Of a DNA stretch of 64,000 nucleotides, positions 3,786 through 52,331 are shown one piece after another (the first letter of the stretch is position 1; each line of letters begins with the position of its first letter). The notes under the pieces were generated by a model. It was given only the letters and a program-made list of their open reading frames with translations. It ran no database searches and was not told the origin of the DNA. The DNA comes from Guyparkeria sp. SCN-R1. GTDB lineage: Bacteria > Pseudomonadota > Gammaproteobacteria > Halothiobacillales > Halothiobacillaceae. The position numbers and the translations under genes are program-made. The DNA lies in NCBI RefSeq assembly GCF_003932495.1, contig NZ_QZMT01000011.1, positions 1 through 64,000 of the forward strand, given 5' to 3'.

Positions 3786-4051
3786 GGAAGGTCTGCACGA
3801 TTCGATGACGTCTCTGCGGGACCTCCAAGGACCCAGATGCAAGGCGCAGTCCGCCGTGAAGGGCCGTGGCCCTTTACAAGGGCTGCAACGCCGCGGATGG
3901 GTCCTTGGAGGCCCGCCCGGATGGGGCTCGCGGGTTTGTCCGTACTCGTCGTTGCCGTCCCTCGACGGGCAATGAGCCCGTCTTCGGTCCGGCGCCTAGA
4001 TTGCGAACAAACCCGCGAGCCAGAGATGCCATCGAATCGTGCAGACCTTCC
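3786..4051 (-). repeat. 266-bp structured intergenic element, copy A
   Basis: The ends form a 22-bp perfect inverted repeat (3786-3807 with 4030-4051) that extends to about 30 pairs with a mismatch and a wobble. Two further hairpins lie inside: 3925-3939 with 4007-4021 (15 bp, perfect) and 3822-3835 with 3898-3911 (14 bp, perfect). A 7-bp hairpin (3964-3970 with 3976-3982) is nested in the first. Read on the minus strand, the element aligns along its length with the copies at 14575-14840 and 52066-52331, which have exactly the same length. It fills the gap between the end of pth and the start of ychF. No coding function is apparent. Confidence 0.85.
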
Positions 4052-4100
4052 TTAGGCGCGGCCGGGCAGGGCGGTCGCGGAATGTGTGCGTGTTGCCCTC

Positions 4101-4685
4101 TCAAGAGGACGGCCGGTAGCTGTTGATGGCCTGCATCAATGCCGGTTCGTCGGCACGGATCAGGTCGGGCGCCAGGTGACGGATTTCGATCACGGCGTCG
4201 TCGATCAGCCGGCGTTCGTCGGGCGGGGCGCTGGTGAGCACGTAGCCGACCACGGCGTCGCGGTGTCCCGGATGCCCCACGCCGATACGCAGGCGCCAGA
4301 AATTCGCGCTGCCCAGGGCCGCCTGGATGTCCTTGAGGCCATTGTGACCGCCGTGACCGCCGCCGCACTTCAGGCGTAGGCGGCCGGGCGGCAGGTCGAG
4401 TTCATCGTGGATCACGAGGATCTCTTCCGGGGCAATCTTGAAGAATTGCGCCAATGGACCCACGGATTGCCCCGAGCGGTTCATGAAGGTGTCCGGGCGC
4501 AATAGCCGCAGGTCAACCCCGTCGACCATCACCCGGGTAACCGCGCCCTTGAATTTCCGCTCCTCGGCCCAGTGGCCGCCCAGCGTCGCCGCAATCGCAT
4601 CCACGGCCCAGAAGCCGGCGTTGTGACGCGTGTTGTCGTACTTCTGCCCGGGATTACCCAGTCCCACGATCAGCTTGATACTCAT
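4101..4685 (-). CDS. pth: Peptidyl-tRNA hydrolase
   Basis: Pth cleaves peptidyl-tRNA released from stalled ribosomes and recycles the tRNA in the cytoplasm. The product is 194 aa, the usual bacterial length. VGLGNPGQKYDNTRHNAGF near residue 7 contains the catalytic His. PDTFMNRSG near residue 67 supplies the conserved Asn, and HDELDLPPG near residue 93 the conserved Asp. The gene follows rplY and precedes ychF on the same strand, a standard gammaproteobacterial cluster. A bidirectional hairpin terminator separates it from rplY, so it probably has its own promoter, although I see no clear one. Confidence 0.97.
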   Translation of the reverse strand: MSIKLIVGLGNPGQKYDNTRHNAGFWAVDAIAATLGGHWAEERKFKGAVTRVMVDGVDLRLLRPDTFMNRSGQSVGPLAQFFKIAPEEILVIHDELDLPPGRLRLKCGGGHGGHNGLKDIQAALGSANFWRLRIGVGHPGHRDAVVGYVLTSAPPDERRLIDDAVIEIRHLAPDLIRADEPALMQAINSYRPSS

Positions 4686-4735
4686 GGGCGCGGATTATCG
4701 CATAGCTTGATTGCACCCATACCCGGACCGGAATG

Positions 4736-4766
4736 AAAAAACCCCGATCGATGGATCGGGGTTTTT
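4736..4766 (-). terminator. Intrinsic terminator after rplY
   Basis: CCCCGATCG at 4742-4750 pairs with the complementary GATCGGGG ending at 4761. On the minus strand it is followed by six T residues, about 20 bp after the rplY stop. The plus-strand side also has five T residues, so it could work in both directions. Confidence 0.85.
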
Positions 4767-4786
4767 CGGACATCGGCTGGGGAAGA

Positions 4787-5443
4787 TCAGGCTTCTTCTT
4801 CGCCTTTCTCTTCCTCGCCACCGGTTTCGGGCTGCTCTTCCTCTTCCGGCTCCTTCTCCACCTTCGGCGGGTGGATGGCGACGACGGCAACGTCGTGACC
4901 TTCACCCAGCGCGAGTTCCGGAATGGCAATGCCTTCCGGCAGCTTGATCTCGGAGAGGTGGATGGACTCGTTGACGTCCAGGTCGGCCAGATCGATGGTC
5001 AGGTACTCCGGCAGCTGACGCGGCAGGCACTCGATCTCGATCTCGTTGTGGATGACGCTGATTACGCCACCGGCCTTGGCGCCCTTACTCTCTTCGCGGT
5101 TCTCGAAGTGCAGCGGGACGTGCATGCGCATCTTCTGACCACGGGTGATGCGCTGGAAGTCAGCGTGCAGCACGACGGTGGTCTTGTACGGGTGACGATG
5201 CAGGTCACGCAGGACCACCTCGTCGGTCTCGCCACCGACATTGAGCTCGAGGATATGCGAGAAGAACGCCTCGTGGTCGAGGTGCTTCAGGAGCTCGTTG
5301 TGATTGATGGTCAGCGAGACCGGCGGCTTCTTGCCACCGTAGACGATTGCCGGGATGTTCCCTTCGCGACGCAGGCGGCGGCTCGCACCCTTCCCCAGGT
5401 CATCGCGAACGGACGCTTCAATCTTGAAAGTTTCTTGAGACAT
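4787..5443 (-). CDS. rplY: 50S ribosomal protein L25/general stress protein Ctc
   Basis: Binds 5S rRNA in the large ribosomal subunit. The chosen start gives MSQETFKIEASVRDDLGKG and 218 aa, the long Ctc-type form with an N-terminal L25 domain (residues 1-95) and a C-terminal TL5 beta domain (to about 190). A highly acidic Glu-rich tail of about 30 residues ends the protein. A longer reading frame begins upstream at 5551, but its extra 36 residues do not look like the family and a GGAG lies just before the 5443 ATG. It sits between prs and pth in the conserved order. Confidence 0.95.
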   Translation of the reverse strand: MSQETFKIEASVRDDLGKGASRRLRREGNIPAIVYGGKKPPVSLTINHNELLKHLDHEAFFSHILELNVGGETDEVVLRDLHRHPYKTTVVLHADFQRITRGQKMRMHVPLHFENREESKGAKAGGVISVIHNEIEIECLPRQLPEYLTIDLADLDVNESIHLSEIKLPEGIAIPELALGEGHDVAVVAIHPPKVEKEPEEEEQPETGGEEEKGEEEA

Positions 5444-5541
5444 GATTGGGTCCACTCCAGAAATAAAAACCGCCGGGGCGACGATTGTCCGGCTCCCGGC
5501 GTCTGATGTACGGCTGCGGCCCGCGACCAAGCCACAACCGA

Positions 5542-5573
5542 CGCGCGCCACTCGATCAATCGAGTGGCGCGCG
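5542..5573. repeat. Perfect 15-bp inverted repeat between prs and rplY
   Basis: CGCGCGCCACTCGAT at 5542-5556 is exactly complementary to 5559-5573, with two bases at the centre. No T-tract follows on either strand, so it is not a standard intrinsic terminator. It lies in the 185-bp prs-rplY gap and could be a protein-binding palindrome, an RNA processing hairpin or part of the rplY leader. Confidence 0.6.
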
Positions 5574-5628
5574 AATTGTACAGGGAAAGCCGTTCGGGAG
5601 GAAGGGTAGAGGGGCTTTCTTTGCCTGG

Positions 5629-6588
5629 TCAGTCGTCGTTGTAGAGCGAGCTGACCGATTCGTCGGTGTGAATGCGGCGAATCGTCTCGGCAAGCATGCC
5701 GGCGACCGAAAGCACCCGGATGCGCTCACAGGCCTCGGCCTCGGGTTTCAGCGGCACGGTGTCGGTCACCACCAGCTCGTCGAGGGACGATGCCTCGATG
5801 TTGCTGATCGCGTTGCCCGAGAGGATGGCGTGGGTAGAGTAGGCCACCACCTTGCGGGCTCCGTGCTTCTTGAGTGCATCGGCCGCCTTGCAGAGCGTGC
5901 CGGCGGTGTCGACCATGTCGTCGACCAGCACGCAGGTCTTGCCCTTGACCTCGCCGATGATGTGCATCACCTGGGAGACGTTGGCGCGCGGACGGCGCTT
6001 GTCGATAATGGCGAGATCCGCATCGTCGAGGCGCTTGGCAACGGCCCGAGCGCGGACTACGCCACCGACGTCCGGGGAGACGACGATCAGGTCTTCGTAT
6101 TTCTGCCGCCAGATGTCACCCAGCAAGATAGGGGAGGCGTAAACGTTATCCACCGGGATGTCGAAGAAGCCCTGGATCTGGTCGGCGTGCAGGTCGACGG
6201 TCAGGATGCGATCCACGCCGCCGCTCTGAAGCATGTTGGCCACAACCTTCGCGCTGATCGGCACGCGAGACGAGCGGACGCGACGGTCCTGGCGGGAGTA
6301 GCCGAAGTAGGGGACGACCGCGGTGATGCGGTGAGCCGAGGCCCGACGCAGCGCGTCGGTCATCAGCATGAGCTCCATGACGTGTTCGTTCGTCGGATCG
6401 CAGGTCGGCTGGATGACGAAGATGTCGCGACCGCGGACGTTTTCCAGGAGCTCGACGGCGGATTCACCGTCCGAGAAGTGCGCTACCGATGCCTGTCCGA
6501 GTTGGCTATCCAGGCTTTCCGCAACCCGTTCGGCCAATGGCCGATTCGCGTTGCCCGTGAAGACCATCAAGGAGCGTGTTAGTGACAT
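5629..6588 (-). CDS. prs: Ribose-phosphate pyrophosphokinase
   Basis: Makes PRPP from ribose 5-phosphate and ATP, feeding nucleotide, His and Trp synthesis. The 319-aa product matches the class I enzyme. FSDGES near residue 39 and [14 protein letters not shown] near 50 form the flexible-loop region, [11 protein letters not shown] near 132 includes a catalytic-site His, and [14 protein letters not shown] near 221 is the PRPP-binding loop. It begins 17 bp after the 3' end of tRNA-Gln, so the tRNA is almost certainly processed from an ispE-tRNA-prs transcript, the usual arrangement in this group. Confidence 0.97.
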
Positions 6589-6605
6589 CGGTCTCGCCGG
6601 TTATT

Positions 6606-6682
6606 TGGCTGGGCCGGCAGGATTCGAACCTGCGAATGCCGGAATCAAAATCCGGTGCCTTAACCAACTTGGCGACGGCCCA
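6606..6682 (-). tRNA. tRNA-Gln (TTG)
   Basis: A complete 77-nt cloverleaf with encoded CCA. The acceptor TGGGCCG pairs with CGGCCCA, the anticodon loop is TTTTGAT with anticodon TTG, and the anticodon stem is CCGGA/TCCGG. It lies between ispE and prs, the classical position in pseudomonads. A 10-bp inverted repeat (6703-6712 with 6755-6764) sits between it and the ispE stop. Confidence 0.96.
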
Positions 6683-6769
6683 TTCGAAAGAGGTGCGCAT
6701 CTTAACCAAGCGATCCGGGTTTGCCAAGGGCTGGTGCCGGTTTTTTTCCCTTTTCGCTTGGTTAGCGAT

Positions 6770-7699
6770 CTAAGGCCCTGATTTGGCGTGATCGCCCCCT
6801 GATGAGACGAAATACCGTCGCAGGATCTCGTGCCTCCTGACCAGATGATCGCCGATCCGCTGGCCCTCGTTTTCGGAGGAAACCGGGGCAAACAGGCACG
6901 CCCCCGAGCCTGTCATGCGCGCAAATCCCGCTTCGGTTTCCAGGTCGGCAAGCAGGGCAGCCAGTTGCGGCTGCTGAGCCAGCACCAGTGGTTCGAACAC
7001 GTTTTGCCCCTTGTCACGCCAGTGATCAAGCAGCTCGGCATCCGGTTGCTTCGGCAGGGCGCGCTCCAATCGCTCATCGGCGAACAGGCCCGCGGTCGGC
7101 GAGGAGATACGGGGCACGAGCACCAGGTAGATCCCGCTGGTGTCACGCGCCACACCGGAATGCAATTGTTCCCCGATGCCGTGCGCCGTGGCGCTTTCAC
7201 CATGCACGAAGACCGGCACATCGGCGCCAAGCTCCTTGCCGATTTGGGCGAGGATGTCGACGGGGTAATCGAGACCCCAAGCCTGATTAAGCACCTGCAA
7301 CAGGCAGGCGGCAGCGGCTGAGCCACCACCTAGTCCGCCACCCACCGGGACATGTTTCTTTAGCGTGACGTGCGCGCCGCGGGGCGCGGTCCCATCGCCG
7401 AGTCGATCGTCACGGGCCCGCTCGCGCAACCGGGTGGCGGCCCGGTAGAGCAGATCGTCTTGGGGGACGGCGGGTTGTCCCGTGATCGGCTCGTCACCGG
7501 CGACCCATTCCACCCGGATATCGTCGTGAGCGCTGTCGACTAGCAGTTCGTCACCGTAGTCCAGCAGTTCGAAGAAAGTCTGCAACTCGTGATAGCCATC
7601 GGCGCGGCGGGCGTTGATGTGCAGGTAGAGGTTGAGCTTGCAGCCGGCGCGGAACCAGTGGCCTTCGGTGGCGGGATCCATACTGGGGCAGGGTGTCAT
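6770..7699 (-). CDS. ispE: 4-(cytidine 5'-diphospho)-2-C-methyl-D-erythritol kinase
   Basis: A GHMP-family kinase of the MEP isoprenoid pathway. The 309-aa protein starts with the substrate-binding segment AGCKLNLYLHINARRADGYH near residue 18. The glycine-rich ATP-binding loop PVGGGLGGGSAAAA follows near residue 118. The start codon overlaps the lolB stop by four bases (ATGA), indicating translational coupling in a lolB-ispE-tRNA-Gln-prs unit. The N-terminus is a little longer than usual (MTPCPSMDPATEGHWFRAG), so initiation at the second Met is possible. Confidence 0.95.
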   Translation of the reverse strand: MTPCPSMDPATEGHWFRAGCKLNLYLHINARRADGYHELQTFFELLDYGDELLVDSAHDDIRVEWVAGDEPITGQPAVPQDDLLYRAATRLRERARDDRLGDGTAPRGAHVTLKKHVPVGGGLGGGSAAAACLLQVLNQAWGLDYPVDILAQIGKELGADVPVFVHGESATAHGIGEQLHSGVARDTSGIYLVLVPRISSPTAGLFADERLERALPKQPDAELLDHWRDKGQNVFEPLVLAQQPQLAALLADLETEAGFARMTGSGACLFAPVSSENEGQRIGDHLVRRHEILRRYFVSSGGDHAKSGP

Positions 7700-8355
7700 C
7701 GACGTGACTGTCCGGTATCCCAGGAGTCCACCACGATGCGAATTCGCATGCCTTCGTTGGTCAGCTCGACAAAGTGGGGCAGGGTGAGACGCCCGACATC
7801 CTGGTAGCGGGCGTATTCCACCTCCCAGCCTTCGTCGGTGAAGGTCACCAGCCGGCCCTGGTCGTCAAGGCGGTAATCGCCAGTGGAGAGCGCGGCCAGG
7901 GAATCACTCGGCAAACCTCTGAGCCAGCGGGGCAGGGTCGCCAGGGGAATACGCCAACCGGTCTGCTCTTCGAGGAGTGCTTCGGGGTCGTCGGTAACAC
8001 GCCGATTGCCATTGCCATCGGTAAGGAGCATATGATTTGGTGTCCCGGTCATCGCCAGATGACCGGTGTCAAAGGGACCGCTCAACTCGAGCGAGGTCAC
8101 CGTGCCAACCTGCGTCCATTCGAGCTGAACGCTCCCACCGGTGACACCGGACCGGACAGCGGCCCGTCCGCCGAACGCCCAGTCGGTCATCGATTCGAGT
8201 TCCTTCGAGTGCGATTCCCAGGCCGTCAGTTGTGCCTCGCTGGCAGGCTCGGTCGGCTGTGTGCCAAGTAGTGAGGCGCAGCCGGAAAGCAAAGTGGTGG
8301 CAACGAACAGGGCGGCAACGCGCAGCGAAGCGGCAGAAGGTGGGATGACTGACAT
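7696..8355 (-). CDS. lolB: Outer-membrane lipoprotein LolB
   Basis: LolB accepts lipoproteins from the periplasmic carrier LolA and inserts them in the outer membrane. The 219-aa precursor has a lipoprotein signal peptide ending in LLSGC (Cys near residue 26). The mature part has the expected features: a WAFGGRAAVRSG segment near residue 57, an LELSGPFDTGHLAMTG strand pair, and IPLATLPRWLRGLP near residue 135. It overlaps ispE by four bases. LolA, its partner, lies far away in this window at 59301-59969. Confidence 0.92.
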   Translation of the reverse strand: MSVIPPSAASLRVAALFVATTLLSGCASLLGTQPTEPASEAQLTAWESHSKELESMTDWAFGGRAAVRSGVTGGSVQLEWTQVGTVTSLELSGPFDTGHLAMTGTPNHMLLTDGNGNRRVTDDPEALLEEQTGWRIPLATLPRWLRGLPSDSLAALSTGDYRLDDQGRLVTFTDEGWEVEYARYQDVGRLTLPHFVELTNEGMRIRIVVDSWDTGQSRR

Positions 8356-8392
8356 GAAAAAGGACGTCGATTGTTGGTGACGGGGGGACGGC

Positions 8393-10162
8393 TCACGGTT
8401 GACCGTCAGCCGGCATCAGCTCCGGGGCGAATCTCAGCAACGTTTCCAGCAGGGTGCTGTCAGTGGCATCGAGCTCCAGGGCCTCTTGCCACACCTCGAG
8501 TGCCTGGTCGCGCTCGCCGTCAGCCCAGAGGACCTCGCCGAGATGCGCACCGATCTCGGCGTTGGGCGCGCGACGGTAGGCGCTTCTCAACGCCTTGAGG
8601 GCCGATTGAATCTCGCCCTGACGGTATTTGAGCCAACCCAGGCTGTCGAGGTAGGCCGCGTTGTCCGGGTCGATGTGCAGCGCGCGATCGATCAGATCCT
8701 CGGCTTCGTCCAGGTTGCGATTTTCGTCAGCCAGGGTGTAGCCCAGCGCATTGAGTGCCTGGGCGTGCTCGGGGTCACGCTCGATGATCTCGCGCAGCAC
8801 GCTGATCGCCGAACCGGATTCATCCAGGGCAAACAGCGTCATGGACTTTTGCAGACGGAAATCGTTGGCATCCGGCCAGGCATCAAGTGCCTGATCGGCA
8901 ATCTGTAGGCTCTCCTCGAACTGACCGGTTTCGGACAGTGTCGAGGCGAGTGCGAGCATCAGTTGTTGTTGGTCGGCCTCGTCAATCCCGTCGGAGAGCA
9001 GGGCGGTTTCCAACCCGCGGACGGCGGCGTCCACCTGGCCTTGATCGACACGGGCACCGGCCAGCAGCACCTGGGCATTGGCGTAATGCTCGCTGCGGGC
9101 GCTTACCTGCGACAGGGCGGCTTCTGCGCCGCTGAGGTCGGCTTCCTGCAGGGCGACCCGTCCGCGGATCAGGTGAACCACGTCCGACTGGCCGGGCAGG
9201 CGTTCAAGCCGATTCAGTGCCTGTTCAGCCAGATCGGGGCGTTCCAGACGAAAGGCGAACAGGGACAGGTTGCGCAACAGCTCGGCATCGTCGGGCCGAG
9301 TTTCCAGGGTGCGCTCGAGCAGCGCGAGTGCGGCATCTGTTTGTCCGGCCGCCAACCGTGCCTCGATCAGCCCGCTCGTGTAACGCCCCTTGTCGGGAAA
9401 CCGGTTGTGCGCCTTTTCGAGCACCCGGATGGCCTGTTCGACGTCACCGTCACGGTTGGCGATCACCATTGCCAGGTCGTAGGCCATGGTCTCGTCGGGG
9501 CGCAGAGACATCGCCCGATTGGCGGCCTCGCGCGCCAGCGTCATCTCACCGAAGGACAGCGCGAGCTTGGCGACGACCACCTGGGCCTCGTATTGCTGAG
9601 GAAAACGCTCGGCGAGGTGGTGCGTATAGTCCACCGCGCGGTCGCGATCGAGACTTTTCTGCAGGTACTGGCCTGTCTCATTGAAGATCTTCTCGACGTT
9701 GCCGGAATCGGATTCCAGCCACTGGTTGAGCGCCCGATCGGCCTGTTCGGTCTCGCCCAGTTCAAGCGAGGAGATCATCATCACCGCGGCGGCGCGGGCA
9801 TTGTCCGGCGAAAGCTTGCGCAACTGTTCCGCAAGGCTCTGGGCCAGGTCGAATCGGTCGGCAAAGATGGCGGCCTGAATGGCGCGCTCGAGCAGTGCCG
9901 GGTCGTTGCTGTTTTGCGCAACCGCCGCGTAGTGGCTCGCTGCCTGATCATAATTCTTGTGGCGACCGTAGAATTCGCCGGCGAGGATGTTGAAAATCGG
10001 ACTCTGTTCGAACGACTTCAATTCACGGGCGGTAGCGCCGGACTCAGTGGCGCCCACGTTCGATTCAGCCGCGGGTTCATTGGCCGGGCTGATGGAGCAG
10101 CCGGCCCCGAGCAAGGCGAGATTCATTCCGAGGAACAATGCAGCGGACGGGATCGGTCGCAT
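8393..10162 (-). CDS. TPR-repeat lipoprotein
   Basis: The 589-aa protein starts with a lipoprotein signal peptide (LALLGAGC, Cys near residue 22). The rest is almost entirely tetratricopeptide repeats, with Ala- and Leu-rich helix pairs and DAELLRNLSLFAFRLERP and DNAAYLDSLGWLKYRQGE as typical units. Proteins of this kind upstream of lolB are common in Pseudomonas and relatives and are thought to act as envelope scaffolds. The specific partner is unknown. The gap to lolB is 37 bp, so it probably heads the lolB-ispE-tRNA-Gln-prs operon. Confidence 0.85.
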   Translation of the reverse strand: MRPIPSAALFLGMNLALLGAGCSISPANEPAAESNVGATESGATARELKSFEQSPIFNILAGEFYGRHKNYDQAASHYAAVAQNSNDPALLERAIQAAIFADRFDLAQSLAEQLRKLSPDNARAAAVMMISSLELGETEQADRALNQWLESDSGNVEKIFNETGQYLQKSLDRDRAVDYTHHLAERFPQQYEAQVVVAKLALSFGEMTLAREAANRAMSLRPDETMAYDLAMVIANRDGDVEQAIRVLEKAHNRFPDKGRYTSGLIEARLAAGQTDAALALLERTLETRPDDAELLRNLSLFAFRLERPDLAEQALNRLERLPGQSDVVHLIRGRVALQEADLSGAEAALSQVSARSEHYANAQVLLAGARVDQGQVDAAVRGLETALLSDGIDEADQQQLMLALASTLSETGQFEESLQIADQALDAWPDANDFRLQKSMTLFALDESGSAISVLREIIERDPEHAQALNALGYTLADENRNLDEAEDLIDRALHIDPDNAAYLDSLGWLKYRQGEIQSALKALRSAYRRAPNAEIGAHLGEVLWADGERDQALEVWQEALELDATDSTLLETLLRFAPELMPADGQP

Positions 10163-10500
10163 GGCGGGCCTGTCGAAACGGTGGATTCATTCGGTCCGAA
10201 GAGACTTCCGACCGACTGGCGACCATTGTAGTGCAACTGCCCGTGGGCATGGCGGCTGCGTGATGGGAATGGTCGAGGGCCAGGACATCCAGAGCGGAAA
10301 GGTCATGTCCCAGCCGGCTACTATACTTCGTAGAATATATATTATGTTAAATAGCATGCGAAGGATGCCGCGAGAGACATCTTATGCTCCTGCCCATCCT
10401 CACACGGCCACGGTTTTCCAAACCAGAGGTATCCAGCGAATTGCCTGTCGGCCACAAGGAGAAGCACCGTCTCCCCTGAGTCCGACGAAGCAAGCCCTGA
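10163..10500. other. Intergenic region with an AT-rich patch, no gene seen
   Basis: This 338-bp gap contains an AT-rich stretch near 10320-10360 with TATACT and TATATATTATG elements. It could hold the promoter of the TPR-lolB operon, but I cannot place a convincing -35 and -10 pair. No convincing coding ORF or terminator is present. Confidence 0.4.
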
Positions 10501-11108
10501 TCAGAATCGGTAAACCAGACCGACCTGCACGACCGGGTAAAGCTTGTAGTCCTCCAGCTCGTCGTTCAGGTCTTTTTCTTCCTGTTCGGCATACTGGTCG
10601 GCGTAAGGCTGTCGAAATGGGTCGCTCGTTTTTACATCGACAGTCGCATCCGGCGCGCCCTGATACATCACGCCGATGTCCGCCCGGAATGACAGCCCCG
10701 GCTCGTTGTTCGCACTGCTCCAGCCGATGCCGAGGTACCTGGAACGGTGATCCCTCGGATATCGTAGCTGTCCTGGTCACCGACAGCGCTGTAACTGTTG
10801 TCATTGAAGATTACGCCGCCGGTGACGCGGAAGTAACCGCCGAACGGGTGATAGTCACCCAGGAGGCCGGCGTTGCGCAGCTCCAGATCCCCTTCGTACT
10901 CGTTTCCGTCGACCGTGAAGGTTTCCGAATAACTGCCGAAGCCCGTTGTCACACGAGCGCGAAATTTGTTCGGCACGATCGTCATGCCCAGTTCGGGGCC
11001 GATACCCAGCGTGCCAACATTGACACCCACGTCGAACTCGGCGGCTTGAGCACCAGCGCTGGCCAGCATGACGGTCGGAAGCACGGACGTGAGAACAGCC
11101 TTCTTCAT
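10501..11108 (-). pseudogene. Outer-membrane beta-barrel protein gene with a frameshift
   Basis: The 5' part encodes MKKAVLTSVLPTVMLASAG, a clear signal peptide cleaved after AQA, then amphipathic beta strands up to YDIRGITVP. At about 10738-10742 the frame breaks. The other frame continues RYLGIGWSSANNEPGLSFRA and ends YPVVQVGLVYRF, whose terminal aromatic residue is the classic outer-membrane barrel signal. Adding one base would restore a 202-aa barrel of the size seen in small OmpW- or Ail-like proteins; the exact family is uncertain. A 10-bp stem-loop (11134-11143 with 11156-11165) lies in the leader. A real mutation or a one-base assembly error would look the same. Confidence 0.75.
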
Positions 11109-11275
11109 ACAACACCTCAGTTGGTTGCGGTCGAGCCACGGTGTTTCTCGTTAATCACCGTGGCTTCGTCGACCATGAAAAGAGGCATGGTGCCGGACTG
11201 AGGTATTAGGCGCTACGTTATCGGGACATACGTATTTCCGAGATAAGGCGATGTGGGAATCCGTTGTCACGGGGC

Positions 11276-11788
11276 TCACCAGCGGTATTTTCCCCAGAGT
11301 TCCGGGTTGGCCCAGTTACGCGAGTTCAGCCAATCGGGCGTGTCCTTGTAACTCTCGATGTTGAACTCATAGAGCGGAGTCTCTGTCTTCAACCGTCGAT
11401 AGCCCAGTGCGACCATCTGGCGGTCATCGGGACCGCCAACCCGCCCATCACCCAGGTGAACGATGATTCGGCGATTGGCGCGGTCTCGCAGCGCTGCTAG
11501 CAGTCCGCCCAGTGTTCCGGACCAGGTAACACTGTCGACAAGGATTTCGACTGCACCCTCACGACCTCGAATCTCGTCCAGGATGGCTTCCTGATCAGTC
11601 GGCAACCGCCGCGCGGCTTGTCGCGACGAACCTTGCCCGTCATGAGCAGTAACAACCAGCGTGATTCCGGCCATACCACCATTCACCTTTTCACATGCAA
11701 TCAATCGGTTGTCCGCCTCAAGCCGCTCATGACGGTCCTTTTCGCTCAGCCGATGAACGTATAGTTCGGGTGTTTTTTTTGCATTCAC
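11276..11788 (-). CDS. DUF6231-like family protein
   Basis: This 170-aa cytoplasmic protein has no known activity. The C-terminal third matches, from memory, a family found in Pseudomonas and relatives: MVALGYRRL, then YEFNIESYKDTPDWLN and RNWANPELWGKYRW at the very end. The middle has the alternating strands and helices of a small Rossmann-like fold (EILVDSVTWSG, IIVHLGDG). It points away from the tRNA-Leu gene and shares a 41-bp upstream region with it. Family assignment is by C-terminal motif only. Confidence 0.65.
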   Translation of the reverse strand: MNAKKTPELYVHRLSEKDRHERLEADNRLIACEKVNGGMAGITLVVTAHDGQGSSRQAARRLPTDQEAILDEIRGREGAVEILVDSVTWSGTLGGLLAALRDRANRRIIVHLGDGRVGGPDDRQMVALGYRRLKTETPLYEFNIESYKDTPDWLNSRNWANPELWGKYRW

Positions 11789-11790
11789 TG

Positions 11791-11819
11791 TTGACAGTCC
11801 CTCTCAGGATTCCTACTAT
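11791..11819 (+). promoter_or_regulatory. Sigma-70 promoter of tRNA-Leu
   Basis: TTGACA at 11791-11796 and TACTAT at 11814-11819 are separated by 17 bases, close to consensus. The GC-rich bases directly after (GCGCCGCG) resemble the discriminator of stringently controlled stable-RNA promoters. The tRNA starts at 11830. Confidence 0.85.
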
Positions 11820-11829
11820 GCGCCGCGTT

Positions 11830-11914
11830 GCCCAGGTGGCGGAACTGGTAGACGCGCTAGTTTCAGGTACTAGTGGAGAGATCCGTGGAGGTTCGAGTCC
11901 TCTCCTGGGCACCA
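11830..11914 (+). tRNA. tRNA-Leu (CAG)
   Basis: An 85-nt class II tRNA with encoded CCA. GCCCAGG pairs with CCTGGGC in the acceptor stem, the anticodon stem CTAGT/ACTAG encloses TTCAGGT with anticodon CAG, and a variable arm follows, as expected for Leu. It has its own promoter and terminator and stands alone. Confidence 0.96.
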
Positions 11915-11932
11915 AATTGCAAGACCGATATG

Positions 11933-11966
11933 AAGGCCGGTGACTCAAAGGGTTATCGGCCTTTTT
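11933..11966 (+). terminator. Intrinsic terminator of tRNA-Leu
   Basis: AAGGCCG at 11933-11939 pairs with CGGCCTT from 11957, followed by a run of T residues to 11966. Confidence 0.75.
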
Positions 11967-12069
11967 CGTTTCTGATCATCTAATCAACCGGTCATCGCCT
12001 GACCGGTCAAGTCCGATAGACCGGGGCGCCCGCCCGTTACCAAACCACGTGCCGAATCAAGACGATAAC

Positions 12070-12101: not shown

Positions 12102-12133
12102 CTTGTGGCACTGCGCGCAGCACCCGGGCACTA

Positions 12134-14503
12134 TCAGCCCGCTTGACGTTTCTTCAACTCCTCCAGGCGCTCCAATGCCGCGGTGGCGCCCTCTTCCTGC
12201 AACTCGGATTCGATCATGTCGAAGCTCTCCCGATCACCTACGTCCAGGAAGGCCTCGGCCAATCCCACGCGTGTGTCGATGTCGGCTTCATCGTCGGCGG
12301 CAGATGAGGTGTGTTCGGCCGCATCCACGGAAACGGCCTCGGACTCGTCCGGCTCTTCAGCCAACGGGATTTCGCCCAGATCGAGATCCATGCCTTCATC
12401 CTGGTCGAACGAGGCTGGCGGCTCGTCTCGCTCTCCTGCCGGTTCGTAGCCCGACAGATCCAGGTCCAGCGGCTCTGGTTCATTCGTGTCGCTGGCCGGG
12501 GTATCGACACTCGCCGCCGGGACCTCATTTTTGGGCAATTCGAGTTCGTTCGACTCATCCTGTCGACCGGTCTCCTCCACCTGGTCTGCCGGCGACTCTT
12601 CCCTACTCGGCGTTTCCAGCGCAAACGAGTCGTCAAAGTCCATCGACCGCTCGTCTTCTAACGTTTCATTGTCCGATTCGGGCGTGGCGAGCATGTCGTC
12701 GAGGTCATCGTCCCAGTCCACGTTGGCCGGTGCTTGCTGTTGGTCCGCCTCCCAATCATCGGTCGACTCCACCGTATCGGTTGGCTCCACGGGCTCAGAC
12801 GAAACGTCGTCGGAGGTCACGCCGCCGGACCCTTCCCTTTCGACCATCGGTGTGGAGTCGTCACTCGGCGGACGGGATTCGTCCCCGGTCTCACCGGCAT
12901 CAATGCCCTTGAGACGGTTCAATGCCGACTGCAGGCCGCTGTGCCCGGGGTGCTCGGCCAGGCTGTCCTGCAACAGCTCCACCGCCTGGTGGGTCAGGTT
13001 GAATGACTCGAGCACCCGCGCCTCTTCCAGCGCCATTTCCGGGTTCATCGGATCGTCCATGCCCCTGGCCGACGCTGATTCCTCCGGCGTGTTGTCCGAA
13101 TTCGCGTACGCCGCACCGGATGCCCCAAACGCCGCAGCTGCAGAGCCGCCCGCGGTCGATGCAGTCGTGCCCATGGGCGCAGGTTCGGCGATCGGATCGC
13201 GATCAAGTGATCGCTTGTTCGAGGTGTCGGCAGTGACCGGCATCGGCACGCCCGGTTCCTCGTCGCGACGGGTCCGACGCAGGGCGAGTGCGATCAGCAA
13301 CGCGATGATTACCAGTCCCAATGCGCCGGTGAGGTACTTGCCCCACTCCATCCAGAAATTGCCGGTCGTGCGCTCGGCGTTTTCCAGTTCAGCCCGGGAC
13401 TGCTCGATGACCTCTTGCAATTCGGCAATCTGGGTATCGCGCTCGTCAACGGCGACCTTGACGGTATCAATCTGATCCTTCAGGGCACGGAGCTGCTCGG
13501 TCAAAGCCTCGTTTTCGGCACGGACCGATTCGACTTCCTCCTGGTCCAGCGCCGCCTCGCGGTTGGTCTGCGCGTTGGCCGTTGACTGCGTGCCGTCGGC
13601 GATCGCCGCAAGCGGTTGCTCACGAGTGAGCTCACCGAACCCAGCAAGATTCGCGGGCGAAGCAGCTTGCTCACCACCCTCTTCCGGACCCAAAAGCTCA
13701 AGCGCAGGCAGTCGATCGGTCACCGTTGACTCGTCCGAAGTCGAGCCGTCTGCGTCCACTCGATCGTTGCTTGTGGCCGATGCGCCGGTGTTCGGCACCC
13801 GAAGACGTGCCCCGGCCATCAGGGCGTTGCCGTTGCCGTTGGCGAATGCTTGCGGATTGGCATCAATGATCGCCTGCATCATGGGGCGAACATCGGCGCC
13901 ATCGGACACGTAATCGCGGGCAATCTCGTAGAGCGTATCGCCGCTTTGGACGTCACGCGTTCCGTCGAGGGAAACGTCTTCGGCCGGCTCAACGCGCTGC
14001 CAGCCGGAGGGCGCAGGCGACGAGCGCGAAGACGATTGCGCCGAAGACGTGGGGGCCGCCGCCTGGCTGGAGCCGGTCACTCCTTCGGAGCGAGCGTCCT
14101 GCCCAGAGCCCATCGAAGGCGGATCGAGCAGCAGGTTGTACTCGCGGATCATTCTCCCCTGCGGGGAGTCGACCTCGAGCAGGATACTCAGGATGGGGTC
14201 ACGAATCGGTCGCTTGGAACCGATCAGGACATAATCCTGACCCCGGTCCGATTCGATGCTGAACGTTAGATTGCCCGTGATGTTTTCCAGCGAGACCCCC
14301 GCCTCTCGGTAAAACGAGGGCGGGGCCAGCTTCACGGTGATCTCGTCGAGCGGCTCGTCGCTGGAGCGCGCCAGTGGCACTCGCACATCGAGGGGTTGAC
14401 TCAAGTACGACTGCACCCGGGCCTCGCCCAGGGTGGCGGCCTGGCTGATCAACGGGGTCCCGGCACCCAGAATCCCCGCAATCACCAAACTCAACTTCCG
14501 CAT
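12134..14503 (-). CDS. fimV: FimV/HubP-type polar landmark protein
   Basis: FimV proteins organise the cell pole and promote type IV pilus assembly or twitching. The start at 14503 is preceded by AAGGAG, giving 789 aa. In order: a signal peptide ending SQA (residue ~24), the FimV N-terminal beta domain with LSQPLDVRVPLA, a LysM domain with VQSGDTLYEIARDY near residue 190, a coiled coil near 330-380, one membrane span (LTGALGLVIIALLIALAL, ~395), a long acidic low-complexity cytoplasmic region, and a C-terminal FimV motif with VGLAEAFLDVGDRESFDMI. Downstream of asd is its usual place in gammaproteobacteria. truA, often next, is not here. Confidence 0.92.
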   Translation of the reverse strand: MRKLSLVIAGILGAGTPLISQAATLGEARVQSYLSQPLDVRVPLARSSDEPLDEITVKLAPPSFYREAGVSLENITGNLTFSIESDRGQDYVLIGSKRPIRDPILSILLEVDSPQGRMIREYNLLLDPPSMGSGQDARSEGVTGSSQAAAPTSSAQSSSRSSPAPSGWQRVEPAEDVSLDGTRDVQSGDTLYEIARDYVSDGADVRPMMQAIIDANPQAFANGNGNALMAGARLRVPNTGASATSNDRVDADGSTSDESTVTDRLPALELLGPEEGGEQAASPANLAGFGELTREQPLAAIADGTQSTANAQTNREAALDQEEVESVRAENEALTEQLRALKDQIDTVKVAVDERDTQIAELQEVIEQSRAELENAERTTGNFWMEWGKYLTGALGLVIIALLIALALRRTRRDEEPGVPMPVTADTSNKRSLDRDPIAEPAPMGTTASTAGGSAAAAFGASGAAYANSDNTPEESASARGMDDPMNPEMALEEARVLESFNLTHQAVELLQDSLAEHPGHSGLQSALNRLKGIDAGETGDESRPPSDDSTPMVEREGSGGVTSDDVSSEPVEPTDTVESTDDWEADQQQAPANVDWDDDLDDMLATPESDNETLEDERSMDFDDSFALETPSREESPADQVEETGRQDESNELELPKNEVPAASVDTPASDTNEPEPLDLDLSGYEPAGERDEPPASFDQDEGMDLDLGEIPLAEEPDESEAVSVDAAEHTSSAADDEADIDTRVGLAEAFLDVGDRESFDMIESELQEEGATAALERLEELKKRQAG

Positions 14504-14574
14504 GTCACTCACTCCTTGCTCGTGCCGGTGCGCCGGGTCTCATTGCCCGACTGTCGTTCCGGCGCCTTCCTTAT

Positions 14575-14840
14575 GGGGAACTCTGCTCGAATACCCAATG
14601 CCTCTGGCTTGCCGGCTTGTTCGCCGTCAAGGCGTCGATTCGATGGCGGGCTTGGTGCCCGGCGAGAATCGACAACACCGAGGGCGGGCAAGCCGGCAAG
14701 CCCCTTCGGGCGGGTCGCCAGGCGCCCATCTGCGGTGTTGCACCGCTTGCCAATGACTACGGCCATTGGCGGCGCGCTGCGCCTAGCATCTGGACGCCTG
14801 GCGACCCGCAGAGGCATTGGTTATTCGTGCAGAGTTCCCC
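14575..14840 (+). repeat. 266-bp structured intergenic element, copy C
   Basis: The ends form a 32-nt inverted repeat (14575-14606 with 14809-14840) with 30 paired positions. Inner hairpin 1 is 14606-14619 with 14689-14702 (14 bp, perfect); inner hairpin 2 is 14711-14728 with 14791-14808 (17 of 18). It is the most diverged copy, yet the arms keep pairing: hairpin 1 has GCCGGCTTG/CAAGCCGGC where the other copies have GCGGGTTTG/CAAACCCGC. It fills the gap between the end of asd and the start of fimV. Confidence 0.85.
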
Positions 14841-14871: not shown

Positions 14872-15894
<1,023 letters not shown>

Positions 15895-41317: not shown

Positions 41318-42903
<1,586 letters not shown>

Positions 42904-42926
42904 TTACAACCGGCCGGCAAGGCGTG

Positions 42927-43409: not shown

Positions 43410-46639
<3,230 letters not shown>

Positions 46640-46693
46640 GCTCGACTCACCTGCCAGCCGTGACTGGGCAGTTGGTTATTCTGGAAAGGCGGC

Positions 46694-47848
46694 TCAGCGA
46701 CGGGCGTCGATGCTCTCGACGAACTGATCGAACAGCAGGTCGAGGTCATGCGGCCCGGGGCTCGCCTCGGGGTGGCCCTGGAAACTGAAGGCCGGACAGT
46801 CGGTACGGCGGATGCCCTGCAGGCTGCCGTCGAACAGAGACCGATGCGTGGCCTCGAGATGGGCCGGCAGGCTGTCCTCCTCGACCGCGAAGCCGTGGTT
46901 CTGGCTGGAGATCAGCACACGCTTGCTGCCGATATCCTGGACCGGGTGGTTCGCCCCATGGTGGCCGAACTTCATCTTGCTGGTCTTCGCGCCGCTGGCC
47001 AGGGCCAACAGCTGGTGTCCCAGGCAGATGCCGAACAGGGGGATGCCGGTCTCGAGCACGCGCTCGATATCGGCGATCGCCTTGGTGCAGGCCGCCGGAT
47101 CACCCGGGCCATTGCCGACCAGGATGCCGTCGGGGTTGGCCGCCAGCAGCTTCTCGACCGGTGCGTCGGCCGGGAACAGCGTGATGCGGCAACCGCGATC
47201 GACCAGCTTGCGCAGGATGTTTTGCTTGAAACCGTAATCGTAGGCGACCACGTGGCGGGTCGCGGCTGGCCGATCCGCCTCGTCCACCCACCAGGAACCG
47301 GCGGTCCATTCGCGCAGCTCGCGGGTGCCGACCTCGGGGATCAGGTCCATGCCGGCGAGGCCCGCGAAGCCCTGGGCCTTCACCACCGCGGCGGTGGCAT
47401 CGAGCTCGCCGCCGGCGACGATGCAGCCCTTCATGGCACCCTGGTCGCGTAGGCGCCGAGTCAGCTCGCGGGTGTCGATCTCCGAGATGGCGACCACACC
47501 ATGCTCACGGCAGTAGTCTTCGAGGGATTGTTCGCCACGCCAGGAGCTCATCTGACCGGAATCACGAACCACCAAACCGGCGACGTGGACCGAGTCGGAT
47601 TCGGCGTCTTCGGCATTGGTGCCGACATTGCCGATGTGCGGGTAGGTGAGGGTCACGATCTGACGGCAGTAGGACGGGTCGGTGAGAATCTCCTGATAGC
47701 CCGTCATTGCGGTGTTGAACACCACCTCGCCCACCGATTCCCCATCGGCCCCGATGGAGGTGCCGTAAAAAACGCTCCCGTCTTCAAGAGCCAGGAGCGC
47801 CGTATTGGCCGGGAGCCCGGTGTTCGCGTCTGAGACCGTGCTATCCAA
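46694..47848 (-). CDS. carA: Carbamoyl-phosphate synthase small subunit
   Basis: Glutamine amidotransferase subunit. I chose a TTG start at 47848 because it gives [20 protein letters not shown] in family register, 384 aa, and GGGGGAAAG lies just upstream; no ATG fits, and the open frame to 48004 looks non-coding. [20 protein letters not shown] (residues ~30-49) is conserved. The glutaminase triad comprises Cys in [13 protein letters not shown] near 278 and the His-Glu of [11 protein letters not shown] near 362. It is 178 bp downstream of dapB on the same strand. Confidence 0.94.
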
Positions 47849-48026
47849 GAACTTTCCCCCACAGATTTGTCGTGTCGCCCCGCCCGAGTTGGCGCTGGCC
47901 GCCGAGGCAGCCGGCACCCCTCGGTTTCGGGGCGCAATTATGACTGAAACGCCCCGATGCTGTCCACGGCGACAGGCGCCTAATCGGGGCGTTCCCTGAA
48001 CCACCCCGCGCCGATTTGCCGGGAGA

Positions 48027-48914
<888 letters not shown>

Positions 48915-49460
48915 CTAGAGCTTGAAAAAGCCGGCACGGTAGTGCGACAGCTCGGCCACCGAACCCCGAATGTCGTCCATCGCCTGGTGATTCGAGTTCT
49001 TGCGGTAACCGGCCAGCACCTCCGGCTGCCAGCGACGAGCAAGTTCCTTGATAGTCGACACATCCAGGTTGCGGTAGTGGAAATACGCCTCGAGCTCCGG
49101 CATCAACCGAGCGAGGAACCGACGATCCTGACAGATGCTGTTGCCACACATCGGCGACTTGCCTTCCGGGACATACTGGCGGAGAAAGTCCAGCGTCCGC
49201 GTCTCGCCGCAACGCAGATCACAGTCGCTCTGGCGCACACGTTCGATCAGCCCGCTCTGCCCATGCACACGCTGGTTCCATTCATCCATTCCGGCGAGCT
49301 TGGCCTCGGGCTGGTGAATCGCTACCACCGGCCCTTCGGCCAGGACATTCAGGTGCTTGTCGGTCACCAGGGTCGCAATCTCGATAATCGTGTCTCGGAC
49401 CGGATCGAGCCCGGTCATCTCGAGATCGATCCAGATCAGATTGTCTTCCGGGGCGTGCAT
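48915..49460 (-). CDS. orn: Oligoribonuclease
   Basis: Degrades 2- to 5-mer RNAs, including pGpG, the end product of EAL-domain phosphodiesterases such as the one encoded at 26204-28936. The 181-aa protein is a DEDDh exonuclease: [12 protein letters not shown] near residue 10 has the first Asp-Glu, [12 protein letters not shown] near 110 the second Asp region, and [16 protein letters not shown] near 157 the His-Asp. It is divergent from mgtE and 75 bp upstream of dapB. Confidence 0.96.
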
Positions 49461-49657
49461 GGACTCTCTCCTAAATTGATGGCAACCGTGGCAAGCGAGG
49501 CGCCGAGAAGCCTAGCACGTCAATGCAAGCACGCAGCCGCGCCTTGCGCGGACCACCCTGCCCGGAGGCGCCTGGTGTCCGCTATACTGGCCGCCGGCTC
49601 ATCCATCCTCGACGGCAGCCACCGCCTGCCTCCGAATTGCCCCGGATTTCCACGTTC

Positions 49658-51091
49658 ATGGCCGAACTCACTGACATTGATCGCCAAGAAGAGCTCGATT
49701 CGCTGATCCACGAGATCCGCGACACGCTCTCTCAGGAGACGAGGACCGACCCGGGCAGCGATGCGGGGGATGGATTCGCCCTCCTGTCGGATCTGGCCAA
49801 GCACGACCTGGCGCAGCTGGCGCAAAAGATCGAACGGCTACACTCCGCCGACGTGGCCAAGGTGCTCGAATCCCTGCCGCAGGACGAGCGCCTGATCATC
49901 TGGGAACTGGTCCATTCCGATCGCGACGGCGAGGTGCTACTCGAGGTATCCGATTCGGTCCGGGACACCCTGATCGAGGTGATGGATCGCGAGGAGATCC
50001 TCAACGCCGCCTCCACCCTCGACACCGACGAACTCGCCGACCTGGCCCCCGATCTCCCCGAAGGGATGATGCAGGACGTCTTCACCGCCCTGCCGATCGA
50101 CGATCGCGAGAAGCTGCGCTTCGTCATGTCCTACGACGAGGACACCATCGGCGCGTTGATGGACTTCGACCTGGTCACGGTCCGAGGCGACGTGACCATC
50201 GAGGTGGCGCTGCGCTACCTGCGGCGAATGGACTCGTTGCCGGATCACACCGACAAACTGTTCGTCACCGATCGCGACGGGTTATTCGAGGGCGTGATCC
50301 ATCTGAAGACCTTGTTGCTCAACGACCCGGAAACGGTCGTGGCCGATGTGATGGAAGCCGACGCGGTGCGCTTTCACCCCGAGGACAAGGCACGTGATGG
50401 CGCGGATGCCTTCGAGCGCTACGACCTGGTTAGTGCGCCGGTGGTCGATGAGGTCGACCGACTGGTCGGCCGGGTCACCATCGACGCGGTGGTCGATTTC
50501 ATTCGCGAGTCCTCCGACGAGGAGCGACTCTCCCAGGTCGGCCTTTCCGAGGAAGAGGACATCTTCGCGCCAGTGCGCAAGTCGGTGAAGAACCGCGCCC
50601 CCTGGCTGGCCGTGAATCTTGTTACGGCGATCGTCGCCGCGCAGGTCATCGGCCTGTTCGAGGGCTCGATCCAGGAACTGGTGGCACTGGCCGTCCTGAT
50701 GCCGATCGTCGCGGGCATGGGCGGCAACGTCGGCAACCAGACCATCACCATGATCGTGAGGGAACTGGCCTTCCGGAAGCTCGGTGGCGGTGATATCCGC
50801 CTGCTTTACGGCAAGGAGCTCAAGGTCGCACTGATCAACGGGGTCGTCTGGGGCGGGGTCCTCGGCCTGGTCACCTTCCTGATGTACCAGAACGCCGGGG
50901 TTTCCGCGGTCATGGTCGCGGCGGTAAGCCTCAACTTCCTGAGCGCCGCCTTCTTCGGCGTCACCATCCCCATCCTGCGCACCCGCATGGGCCGCGATCC
51001 GGCGCTCGGCAGCGCGGTCATGATTACCGCGATCACCGACTCGGGCGGTTTCTTCATCTTCCTGGGGCTCGCCACCCTCTTCCTGCTTTGA
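49658..51091 (+). CDS. mgtE: Magnesium transporter MgtE
   Basis: Mg2+ channel or transporter of the inner membrane, gated by its cytoplasmic domains. From MAELTDIDRQEELDSLIHEI the protein is 477 aa. Residues 40-165 are the superhelical MgtE_N domain, about 170-290 are paired CBS domains (VTVRGDVTIEVALRYLRRMD region), and five membrane spans follow from about 320. GMGGNVGNQTITMIVRELA near 376 is the pore signature. A TATACT element at 49583-49588 could be the -10. A longer frame from 49523 lacks family similarity. Confidence 0.95.
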   Translation: MAELTDIDRQEELDSLIHEIRDTLSQETRTDPGSDAGDGFALLSDLAKHDLAQLAQKIERLHSADVAKVLESLPQDERLIIWELVHSDRDGEVLLEVSDSVRDTLIEVMDREEILNAASTLDTDELADLAPDLPEGMMQDVFTALPIDDREKLRFVMSYDEDTIGALMDFDLVTVRGDVTIEVALRYLRRMDSLPDHTDKLFVTDRDGLFEGVIHLKTLLLNDPETVVADVMEADAVRFHPEDKARDGADAFERYDLVSAPVVDEVDRLVGRVTIDAVVDFIRESSDEERLSQVGLSEEEDIFAPVRKSVKNRAPWLAVNLVTAIVAAQVIGLFEGSIQELVALAVLMPIVAGMGGNVGNQTITMIVRELAFRKLGGGDIRLLYGKELKVALINGVVWGGVLGLVTFLMYQNAGVSAVMVAAVSLNFLSAAFFGVTIPILRTRMGRDPALGSAVMITAITDSGGFFIFLGLATLFLL

Positions 51092-51100
51092 GCTAGCGGC

Positions 51101-52066
51101 ATGACTCGAAAGATTCGCCTGAGCAAACAGCAGCAACGCCATATCGACCGCCGGCGGCGCGTCGATGACCAGGCCGAGACCTCGCTCTCTCCGGGCATCG
51201 TGGTGACCCATCACGGCCATGACCTGTTGATCGAGGACAGTGATCACCAGCTTCACCGTGGTCGCGCCCGGCGGACGGTGGGTCGCCTGACCACGGGCGA
51301 CCGCATCCGCTGGCACTGCGACGAGCAAGGTAACGTGATGATCGAGCAGCGCGAGGACCGCCGGAACCTGCTGATCCGTCCGGACGCCTACGGCAAAAAG
51401 AAGATGATGGCCGCCAATATCGACCAGGTGATGGTCATCACCTCGGTGTTGCCCTGGATGAACCCGGACGTGGTCGAACGCACCCTGGTGGCCGTTTTTG
51501 CCCTGCCAGCCACGCCTGTGATCGTGCTCAACAAGGTCGATCTCTTGCCCGGCCTGCCCGCCGGCGAGCGCCGCAGCATCGAGGAAAACATCGCCCTGTG
51601 GGAGTCGCTGGGTTTCGAGGTCATTCGTACCTCGGTGAAGTCCGGCGAGGGCATCGAGGCGCTTCGCAGCCGGCTCCATGAACAAATCACGCTGATGGTT
51701 GGGTTGTCAGGGGTGGGCAAGACGTCCTTGTCGCGGGAGGTTACCCCCAGTGCCGATCAGGCGGCCATCGGCGAAATCTCGACGTTCAACCGCGAAGGCA
51801 CCCACACCACGCGTGCCAGCACGCTCTACCGATTTCCGGATGGCGACGGTGGGCTGATCGACGCCCCCGGTGTGCGGGATTTCCCGGTCGAGGAAGTGCC
51901 CTCAGCCGCCCTGGATGAGGGTTTCCCCGAGATCCACGCCGCGTCGGCCTACTGCCGTTTCAACGACTGTCGTCACATCAACGAACCAGGGTGCGCGGTG
52001 CGTGCGGCCGTGGCCGATGGCGACATCCTTGAGCGCCGCCTCGCCCAGTACCAGGCGATGCGCTAG
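51101..52066 (+). CDS. rsgA: Small ribosomal subunit biogenesis GTPase RsgA
   Basis: Circularly permuted GTPase that checks late 30S maturation. The 321-aa protein has an OB-fold (residues ~30-105), then the motifs in permuted order: NKVDLLPG near 140, GLSGVGKTSLSREV near 205 and IDAPGVRDFPVEEV near 255, then a zinc-binding tail CRFNDCRHINEPGC near 285. It starts nine bases after mgtE. Its stop codon TAG (52064-52066) contains the first base of the 266-bp structured element that follows. Confidence 0.96.
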   Translation: MTRKIRLSKQQQRHIDRRRRVDDQAETSLSPGIVVTHHGHDLLIEDSDHQLHRGRARRTVGRLTTGDRIRWHCDEQGNVMIEQREDRRNLLIRPDAYGKKKMMAANIDQVMVITSVLPWMNPDVVERTLVAVFALPATPVIVLNKVDLLPGLPAGERRSIEENIALWESLGFEVIRTSVKSGEGIEALRSRLHEQITLMVGLSGVGKTSLSREVTPSADQAAIGEISTFNREGTHTTRASTLYRFPDGDGGLIDAPGVRDFPVEEVPSAALDEGFPEIHAASAYCRFNDCRHINEPGCAVRAAVADGDILERRLAQYQAMR

Positions 52067-52331
52067 GGAACCGCTGCACGATTCGATGGCGCCTCTGGCT
52101 GGCGGGTTTGTTCGCAATCAAGGCGCCGTACCGAAGGCGGGCTCATTGCCCGGCGAGGGGCGGCAACGCCGAGTGCGGCCAAACCCGCGAGCCCCATACG
52201 GGCGGGCCGCCAAGGGCCCATTTGCGGCGTTACAGTCCTTGTGAAGGACCCCGCCATTCACGGCGAACTGCGCCTTGCAACTGGGCCCTTGGCGGCCCGC
52301 AGAGACGCTATCGAATCGTGCAGCGGTTCCC
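52066..52331 (+). repeat. 266-bp structured intergenic element, copy B
   Basis: A 22-bp perfect terminal inverted repeat (52066-52087 with 52310-52331). Inner hairpin 1: 52097-52110 with 52180-52193, 13 of 14 paired. Inner hairpin 2: 52203-52220 with 52282-52299, 18 bp perfect. It aligns with the minus strand of copy A at 3786-4051, with numerous paired substitutions in the stems. It fills the gap between the convergent rsgA and HIT genes and begins at the last base of the rsgA stop codon. Confidence 0.85.

Follow-up and report, generated by a model that had tools for sequence, protein, structure and literature searches.

The 64,000-nucleotide stretch analysed here (the window) spans positions 1 to 64,000 of contig NZ_QZMT01000011.1 of Guyparkeria sp. 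SCN-R1 and carries three copies, A, B and C, of a repeat of ~265 bp in which an outer stem closes two long hairpins. We propose, with a probability of roughly 0.7, that each copy is a non-autonomous transposon, i.e. a miniature inverted-repeat transposable element (MITE) of the IS5 type, carrying an old core module that may work as folded DNA. Judged by its ends and target, the element is an IS5-type MITE, and its core is a widely spread, conserved and covarying variant. Ends and target of this type are known; the conserved, covarying cloverleaf core appears to be new.

An earlier note, made from the letters of this DNA, had described three copies of exactly 266 bp and had offered a structured RNA, a cruciform protein-binding site or a non-autonomous mobile element as explanations. 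All three copies are where it put them: A at 3786-4051 on the minus strand (266 bp, GGAAGG..CCTTCC), B at 14575-14840 on the plus strand (266 bp) and C, also on the plus strand, which is better delimited as 52067-52330 (264 bp, GGAACC..GGTTCC), 266 bp having been quoted because one base of each flanking repeat was counted in. Three lines of evidence, namely empty sites, a duplicated target and ends of the IS5 type, support the mobile-element explanation. At the level of sequence comparison, the copies are demonstrably mobile, having been inserted into sites that are empty in relatives. Firstly, at site A the element is missing in loci L088 and L089, and the window has a clean CTAA/CTAA duplication (left repeat at 4052-4055, right repeat at 3782-3785, minus strand). 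Secondly, copy C occurs at its site in the host genome (G000) and in G009, and of the 8 relatives compared (L179-L186; L187 is unreadable there) the other 7 have an empty site; the copy is flanked by CTAG on the left (52063-52066) and CCAG on the right (52331-52334), both on the plus strand. Thirdly, at site B an element is present in G000 and G002, and of the 9 relatives compared (L169-L177) the remaining 8 have none; no clear pair of repeats flanks copy B, the target repeats being decayed or ambiguous. Across 47 full-length copies, the 4-bp flanking repeats are exact in 12 and equal in at least three of four bases in 23, and YTAR is found on at least one side in 28; random re-pairing of flanks gave a mean of 3.3 exact repeats and a maximum of 9 in 1000 trials. 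Copy B is common to G000 and G002 and missing in G001, G009 and G006, and the site-B flanks compare with those of G000 at 89.7 and 94.0% identity in G009 and at 88.4 and 88.4% in G002; precise loss or transfer is a possible cause of this distribution.

The earlier note had also raised the prospect that only these copies exist, and this can be dismissed, since the repeat is a dispersed family. BLAST matches in the host genome number 43 with copy B and 46 with copy A as the query, partial and opposite-strand matches being counted. A profile built from the three copies yielded 47 distinct full-length copies in 87 fetched loci, 28 of them from the host genome, with lengths of 261-279 bp and ends that pair with each other. 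As in MITEs generally, the elements are shorter than 500 bp, have terminal inverted repeats and encode no protein, although coding capacity was checked only roughly. At least three sequence subfamilies share this length and fold; copy B belongs to a different subfamily from copy C, with 75% identity over 241 aligned bases. With copy A as the query, matches were obtained in 10/11 genomes of the genus and in 4/16 genomes of other genera of the family. Homologs of copy A were searched for in plasmids and phages, and those of a distant copy in E. coli genomes, in both cases with no match.

The ends of the element, GGAANNTCTG, and its YTAR-type targets match those of IS5-family insertion sequences (ISs), for example L211 and L274; the latter has ends GGAAGGTCTGCACAAC with CTAG on both sides. 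In G019, a genome of the same family, an IS of 1211 bp has ends GGAAGGTCTGATCAAT and TTAA on both sides, and its transposase belongs to the IS5 family (Pfam DDE_Tnp_1 and DUF772, NCBIfam NF033581). A relative of this transposase is present in 37/369 Gammaproteobacteria genomes (E 1e-30). Ends were sought in 20 of the 30 loci returned and found in 16, which with L211 makes 17; in L273, L278, L279 and L282 none were found, and for L271 and L277 the second-ranked end pair, with GG ends and YTAR flanks, was used. The end consensus is GGAANCTCTGAACAA for the ISs (n = 17) and GGAANCTCTGCACGAAT for the elements (n = 45). YTAR flanks 13/17 IS end pairs on both sides, under a finding rule that required 3/4 equal flank bases. 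The Guyparkeria-type copies thus combine IS5-like ends with a YTAR target. Over 18 positions, end matches end at 14.4 positions in the ISs and 17.2 in the elements, and positions 5-6 agree in 8/17 ISs versus 39/45 elements (Fisher 0.0024), a comparison that is conservative because IS end pairs were chosen for good match. It seems, then, that the element's ends pair better than transposition appears to need; either the complementarity of the arms is maintained for more than end recognition, or one arm is copied from the other. No match to a covariance model of the cloverleaf was obtained at E 0.1 in 33 IS-type transposase loci, some of which are cut by contig ends, so that only the ends are shared between IS and element. 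Sharing of ends alone is the pattern of type II MITEs, as given in the available sections of PMC10969869. Two candidates for an autonomous partner were rejected: L212 (G001), the sole PF01609 match in the 11 Guyparkeria genomes searched, has ends unlike those of the element, and a 3.5-kb interval between facing ends in G009 contains other genes, with no transposase seen by eye among its open reading frames (ORFs).

The predicted shape of the element is a cloverleaf. Single-sequence folding of A, B and C agrees with the earlier note in giving an outer stem that closes two long hairpins, with minimum free energies (MFE) of -188.7, -195.4 and -194.6 kcal/mol and z-scores of -15.96, -16.12 and -15.10, respectively; for each copy, none of 200 dinucleotide shuffles folded as well. 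In A, hairpin 1 lies at approximately 3925-4021 and hairpin 2 at approximately 3820-3917 (minus strand; both taken from the consensus structure). The hairpin-1 arms are those quoted before, GCGGGTTTG/CAAACCCGC at 3786 and 52066 and GCCGGCTTG/CAAGCCGGC at 14575. A very short helix of two pairs appears at the junction in the single-sequence folds and is absent from the RNAalifold prediction, yet the CCC..GGG letters there are conserved. Covariation was assessed in a MAFFT alignment, built without structure, of 45 copies from the genus and family, picked from 57 forward full-length ones by omitting 12 near-duplicates or redundant copies. The stems do covary, as had been claimed from three copies: RNAalifold predicts 82 pairs, 49 of which have changes on both sides. 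Paired cells make up 96.4% in the real alignment versus 83.8% in shuffled ones and 36-43% with partners slid by 1-3 columns, and the covariation score is 0.356 versus 0.131 and at most 0.073, respectively; the structure having been predicted from the same alignment, it is favoured over its slid versions. None of 500 shuffles matched the real alignment in any of five measures, a test that relatedness among the copies inflates.

Several length variants were seen within this fold. An insert of ~12 bases in the loop of hairpin 1, between GGGCC and GGCCC, is found in L019, L006/L054, L047, L197 and L198; L019 and L054 are copies of the host genome whose orthologs L351 and L311 have no such insert, which suggests that inserts have formed more than once at the same position. 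Directly after its site-C copy, L179 has a run of 13-base repeats (approximately GGGCGGTTACCCA) that resemble the loop inserts and do not occur there in the window. The enlarged elements L192, L196 and L198 of G002 (338-346 bp) have a branched insert in hairpin 2 that includes a hairpin like CGGGGTTCATGGACGAACCCCG.

A covariance-model search, which the earlier note had suggested, found relatives well beyond the genus. The model, R1, was built from the 45 copies and used at a threshold of E 1e-5; five candidates were scored per genome, so copy numbers are not meaningful, and E-values are rough owing to short calibration. R1 matches 83/369 Gammaproteobacteria genomes, three of the 83 being Guyparkeria, in 66/272 genera, and full-length matches outside the family include Azotobacter chroococcum NCIMB 8003 (114.3 bits) and Halomonas sp. 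PA16-9 (113.7 bits). We examined 30 copies, namely the 27 best-scoring new loci returned together with L072, L087 and L075; one of the 30, L243, is near the Guyparkeria type. They measure 258-269 bp by the model ends, with a GC content of 0.49-0.70, and their fold is near-uniform, the exceptions being L268 (one long hairpin as MFE structure) and L250 and L253 (altered hairpins). When 27 elements, three of them from Guyparkeria, were fitted to R1, 95.7% of cells were paired and 65/82 pairs showed three or four Watson-Crick types, in an alignment that leans toward the model by construction. Conserved letters concentrate at the hairpin tips and the junction, and the tip motifs, ATCAAGGCGC..GCAACGCCGA in hairpin 1 and GGCGTTGC..GCGCCTTGCA in hairpin 2, are near reverse complements of each other. 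Some of the 30 copies have GGAANNTCTG-like ends and others TGTASTGCG, TACTCTTTCAAGG, TGTCCTGTC and more, and many of those with rewritten ends adjoin CTAG or TTAA. With its ends rewritten while it persists, the core outlives its ends. Length and fold persist, arms and ends are rewritten, and the mirror-image tips stay.

We suggest the following mechanism. An IS5-family transposase acting in trans would recognise the GGAANNTCTG ends and move the element; for the GGAA-type copies, and for these only, such mobilisation is highly probable in view of their ends and targets. The core, consisting of outer stem and two long hairpins, would be an old module that is not derived from the IS. Its arms would stay paired while being free in sequence, and both tips would bear the conserved motif CAAGGCGC..GCAACGCC in mirror image. 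It may act in cruciform form, or through hairpins that one strand forms while single-stranded, and a candidate protein that promotes copying or retention of the element may bind the two tips. That the core works in this way as folded DNA, its mirror-image tips bound by a putative protein aiding copying or upkeep, we put at slightly less than even odds. It is possible, if doubtful, that the core is very old and recognised by its shape, with a protein reading the tips of the cloverleaf DNA, the arms drifting and the ends being repeatedly swapped for those of whichever YTAR-targeting transposase is available. If so, the element would be structure-selected mobile DNA with exchangeable ends, possibly retained by hosts for their own use.

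Several observations weigh against this combination of a mobile element and a folded-DNA core. Regarding the mover, no PF01609 transposase was found in 10 of the 11 Guyparkeria genomes searched, and an autonomous partner in the same genome was not found in the genus. Co-occurrence is weak, the element being present in 12/37 genomes with an IS5-type transposase and in 71/332 without. Many distant copies have other ends (GGAACCTCTGATYAAT, GGGCACCTCTATT, TGTASTGCGNC, TACTCTTTCAAGG, TGTCCTGTC and others), and a search of four genomes (G110, G233, G227 and G041) for a partner of IS size with TGTASTGCG ends found none; neighbouring TGTASTGCGNCNC ends that face each other are separated there by ~250 bases or fewer, i.e. 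by the spacing of the element or less. Regarding the core, an RNA would tolerate G-U and avoid A-C on its strand. Raw G-U and A-C cells number 89 and 20 in hairpin 1, 22 and 13 in hairpin 2 and 47 and 15 in the outer stem, an excess of G-U to which hairpin 1 contributes two conserved U-G positions and the outer stem two positions with G-U in 13 and 14 copies, these four accounting for most of it. The alignment fitted to the model likewise gives 76 G-U and 42 A-C cells, at 30 and 18 positions. In the Guyparkeria copies, the opposite strand obtains less than half the score, so their mirror image is only partial.

Transcription of the element, with the fold acting at the RNA level on the host or on the propagation of the element (through termination, RNase III cleavage or action in trans), would accommodate this raw excess and the two conserved U-G positions, as well as the strongly stable, covarying fold, and RNA roles are reported for other MITEs in the available part of PMC2229807. 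When each pair position is counted once, the two appositions are about equally frequent, with G-U at 14 and A-C at 15 positions of hairpin 1, at 10 and 8 of hairpin 2 and at 13 and 10 of the outer stem. The outer stems of distant copies, for which pairing did not rely on the model, have 11 G-U and 13 A-C cells, and 9/35 loci score within 14% on both strands (153.7 and 150.7 for L265). Around 32 of 33 elements of the host genome (some partial, and with a rough ORF rule), genes are convergent in 12 cases and divergent in 3, which speaks for an RNA, and tandem in 17; the tandem elements run with the genes in 7 cases and against them in 10 and so show no direction preference. An Rfam scan of the 64-kb window returned three tRNAs only, with no match to the element at gathering score, and a lax threshold applied to 11 element loci gave four weak miRNA matches, all below gathering score and at chance level. 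On balance, and without being decisive, the apposition counts favour a DNA role independent of direction over an RNA of one strand. We therefore regard the structured RNA of the earlier note as unlikely, a strand-specific RNA being unsupported by the similar position counts and the lack of gene-direction preference; of the note's cruciform protein-binding site, we retain a folded-DNA site for the core as the preferred option, as a candidate only.

Alternatively, the element may be a passive MITE, its palindrome arms kept alike by mutual repair through template switching and its core without function. This was weighed at sites shared between genomes, where 20 candidate pairs of copies were found, 11 of them matched on both flanks. 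Some double changes that keep a pair do occur in place, 5 of them among the 11 pairs matched on both flanks and 34 among all 20, as mutual repair would have it. The same 11 pairs hold 37 changes that break a pair, 22 one-sided changes that keep it, and, among two-sided changes, 5 that keep and 2 that break it; with 37 breaking and 22 one-sided changes, in-place repair is not efficient. Passivity is also suggested by deletion derivatives of 55-199 bp that retain both ends, which make up 11 of 15 intervals between facing ends, chosen for having both; of the others, three are of 338-346 bp, with additional hairpins within hairpin 2, and one is of 277 bp. Elements are more alike than their flanks in 11/11 comparisons at 10 sites (91.7-99.3% versus 81.8-92.0% identity), a set from which L336/L307 was dropped as redundant and to which L335/L028 was added, in which two comparisons share L009 and for which copies had been found by similarity or intact ends, so that conserved ones are favoured. 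Sites B and C were not so chosen. At C, the element is 96.5% identical and the flanks 91.2 and 90.6%; at B, the element is 97.7% identical over 177 aligned bases versus 88.4% in each flank, though the G002 copy has lost hairpin 1. A broken copy that is preserved this well fits a passive element and speaks against a simple host-function reading. Stems change less than loops when the fold of one member is used (2.7 versus 7.5%), which is a biased measure; taking the two members' folds together gives 3.6 versus 3.9% (p 0.69), and the consensus structure gives 2.8 versus 4.9% (p 0.004). Copying between arms does not account for the keeping of length, junction and tips across many genera, and we consider a purely passive element improbable. 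A REP/REPIN-like element moved by a hairpin-reading Y1 (HUH) transposase is very improbable, even though the repeat is dispersed and hairpin-rich and Y1_Tnp matches occur in 6/11 Guyparkeria genomes including G000, because G004, G005, G006 and G008 carry the element with no Y1 match, leaving it without that partner, and because target duplication and IS5-type ends indicate a DDE enzyme. The Y1 transposase was rejected as partner for its patchy distribution in the genus; the host genome has two neighbouring stretches of Y1-transposase type (L228 and L241) at G000:C2:7970-8649.

Among known systems, the IS5-family ISs (NF033581; L211, L274) share GGAANNTCTG ends and a YTAR-type target with the element and differ in being ~1.2 kb long with a transposase gene and in lacking a cloverleaf match in the 33 transposase loci. 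The nearest described MITE is MITEPsy1 of Pseudomonas syringae, which according to the available sections of PMC3189936 is 100 bp long, has ends GGAAGGTCTGAAAAAGCC, duplicates CTAG or YTAA, transposes in vivo and is likely moved by the IS5-family relative ISPsy2. It resembles the element in its ends, its 4-bp CTAG/YTAA duplication and its IS5-family link, and differs in length (100 versus ~265 bp); those sections of PMC3189936 do not mention a conserved cloverleaf. Thus, the match to a described MITE family that the earlier note had envisaged is found for ends and target, the inner sequence lying outside the comparison. ERIC, Correia and other bacterial MITEs are likewise dispersed, mostly intergenic and stably folded, with terminal inverted repeats; in most of them the target is TA and the fold a single long stem-loop, and a class-wide covarying multi-hairpin core is not described in the parts of PMC2229807 and PMC10969869 available. 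CIR repeats also have two arms and a linker, with a structure kept across species; they are ~110 bp long, have no outer stem, bear GANTC at the tip and belong to the Alphaproteobacteria, as given in the same part of PMC2229807. The distant copies of our element, found in Gammaproteobacteria, measure 258-269 bp and have another tip consensus. The main text of a Guyparkeria pangenome paper (PMC9032823) has no word beginning with transpos-, MITE or mobile. No such element was found in the open-access literature searched, which was covered in part and excludes ISfinder and subscription papers, so it may bear another name.

Integron attC sites are recognised by their folded shape while the letters of their arms drift. 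They offer an analogy for recognition of the core only, being single hairpins that are used by a tyrosine recombinase with no target duplication, and we do not claim membership. MITEs are usually regarded as short-lived remnants of insertion sequences. Here, a single fold, a nearly constant length and a pair of tip motifs are shared across about a quarter of the sampled gammaproteobacterial genera (66/272), although arms and ends have turned over. Should the fold function at the DNA level, the element would offer an accessible system for studying natural selection on the secondary structure of DNA, and the tips could serve as bait for the protein that reads them. As an unannotated repeat, it may also disturb assembly, terminator prediction and screens for non-coding RNA in these genomes.

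Copy A lies between the minus-strand ORFs 4101-4685 and 2665-3759. The product of ORF 4101-4685, which we take by eye to be peptidyl-tRNA hydrolase, with YchF, Asd and FimV presumably as neighbours, is 90% identical to a protein of Guyparkeria sp. LH_M38. Copy B lies between the minus-strand ORFs 14872-15894 and 12134-14512. At copy C, ORF 51101-52066 terminates at the TAG of the left target repeat CTAG; in relatives with an empty site it reads on for a few more codons.

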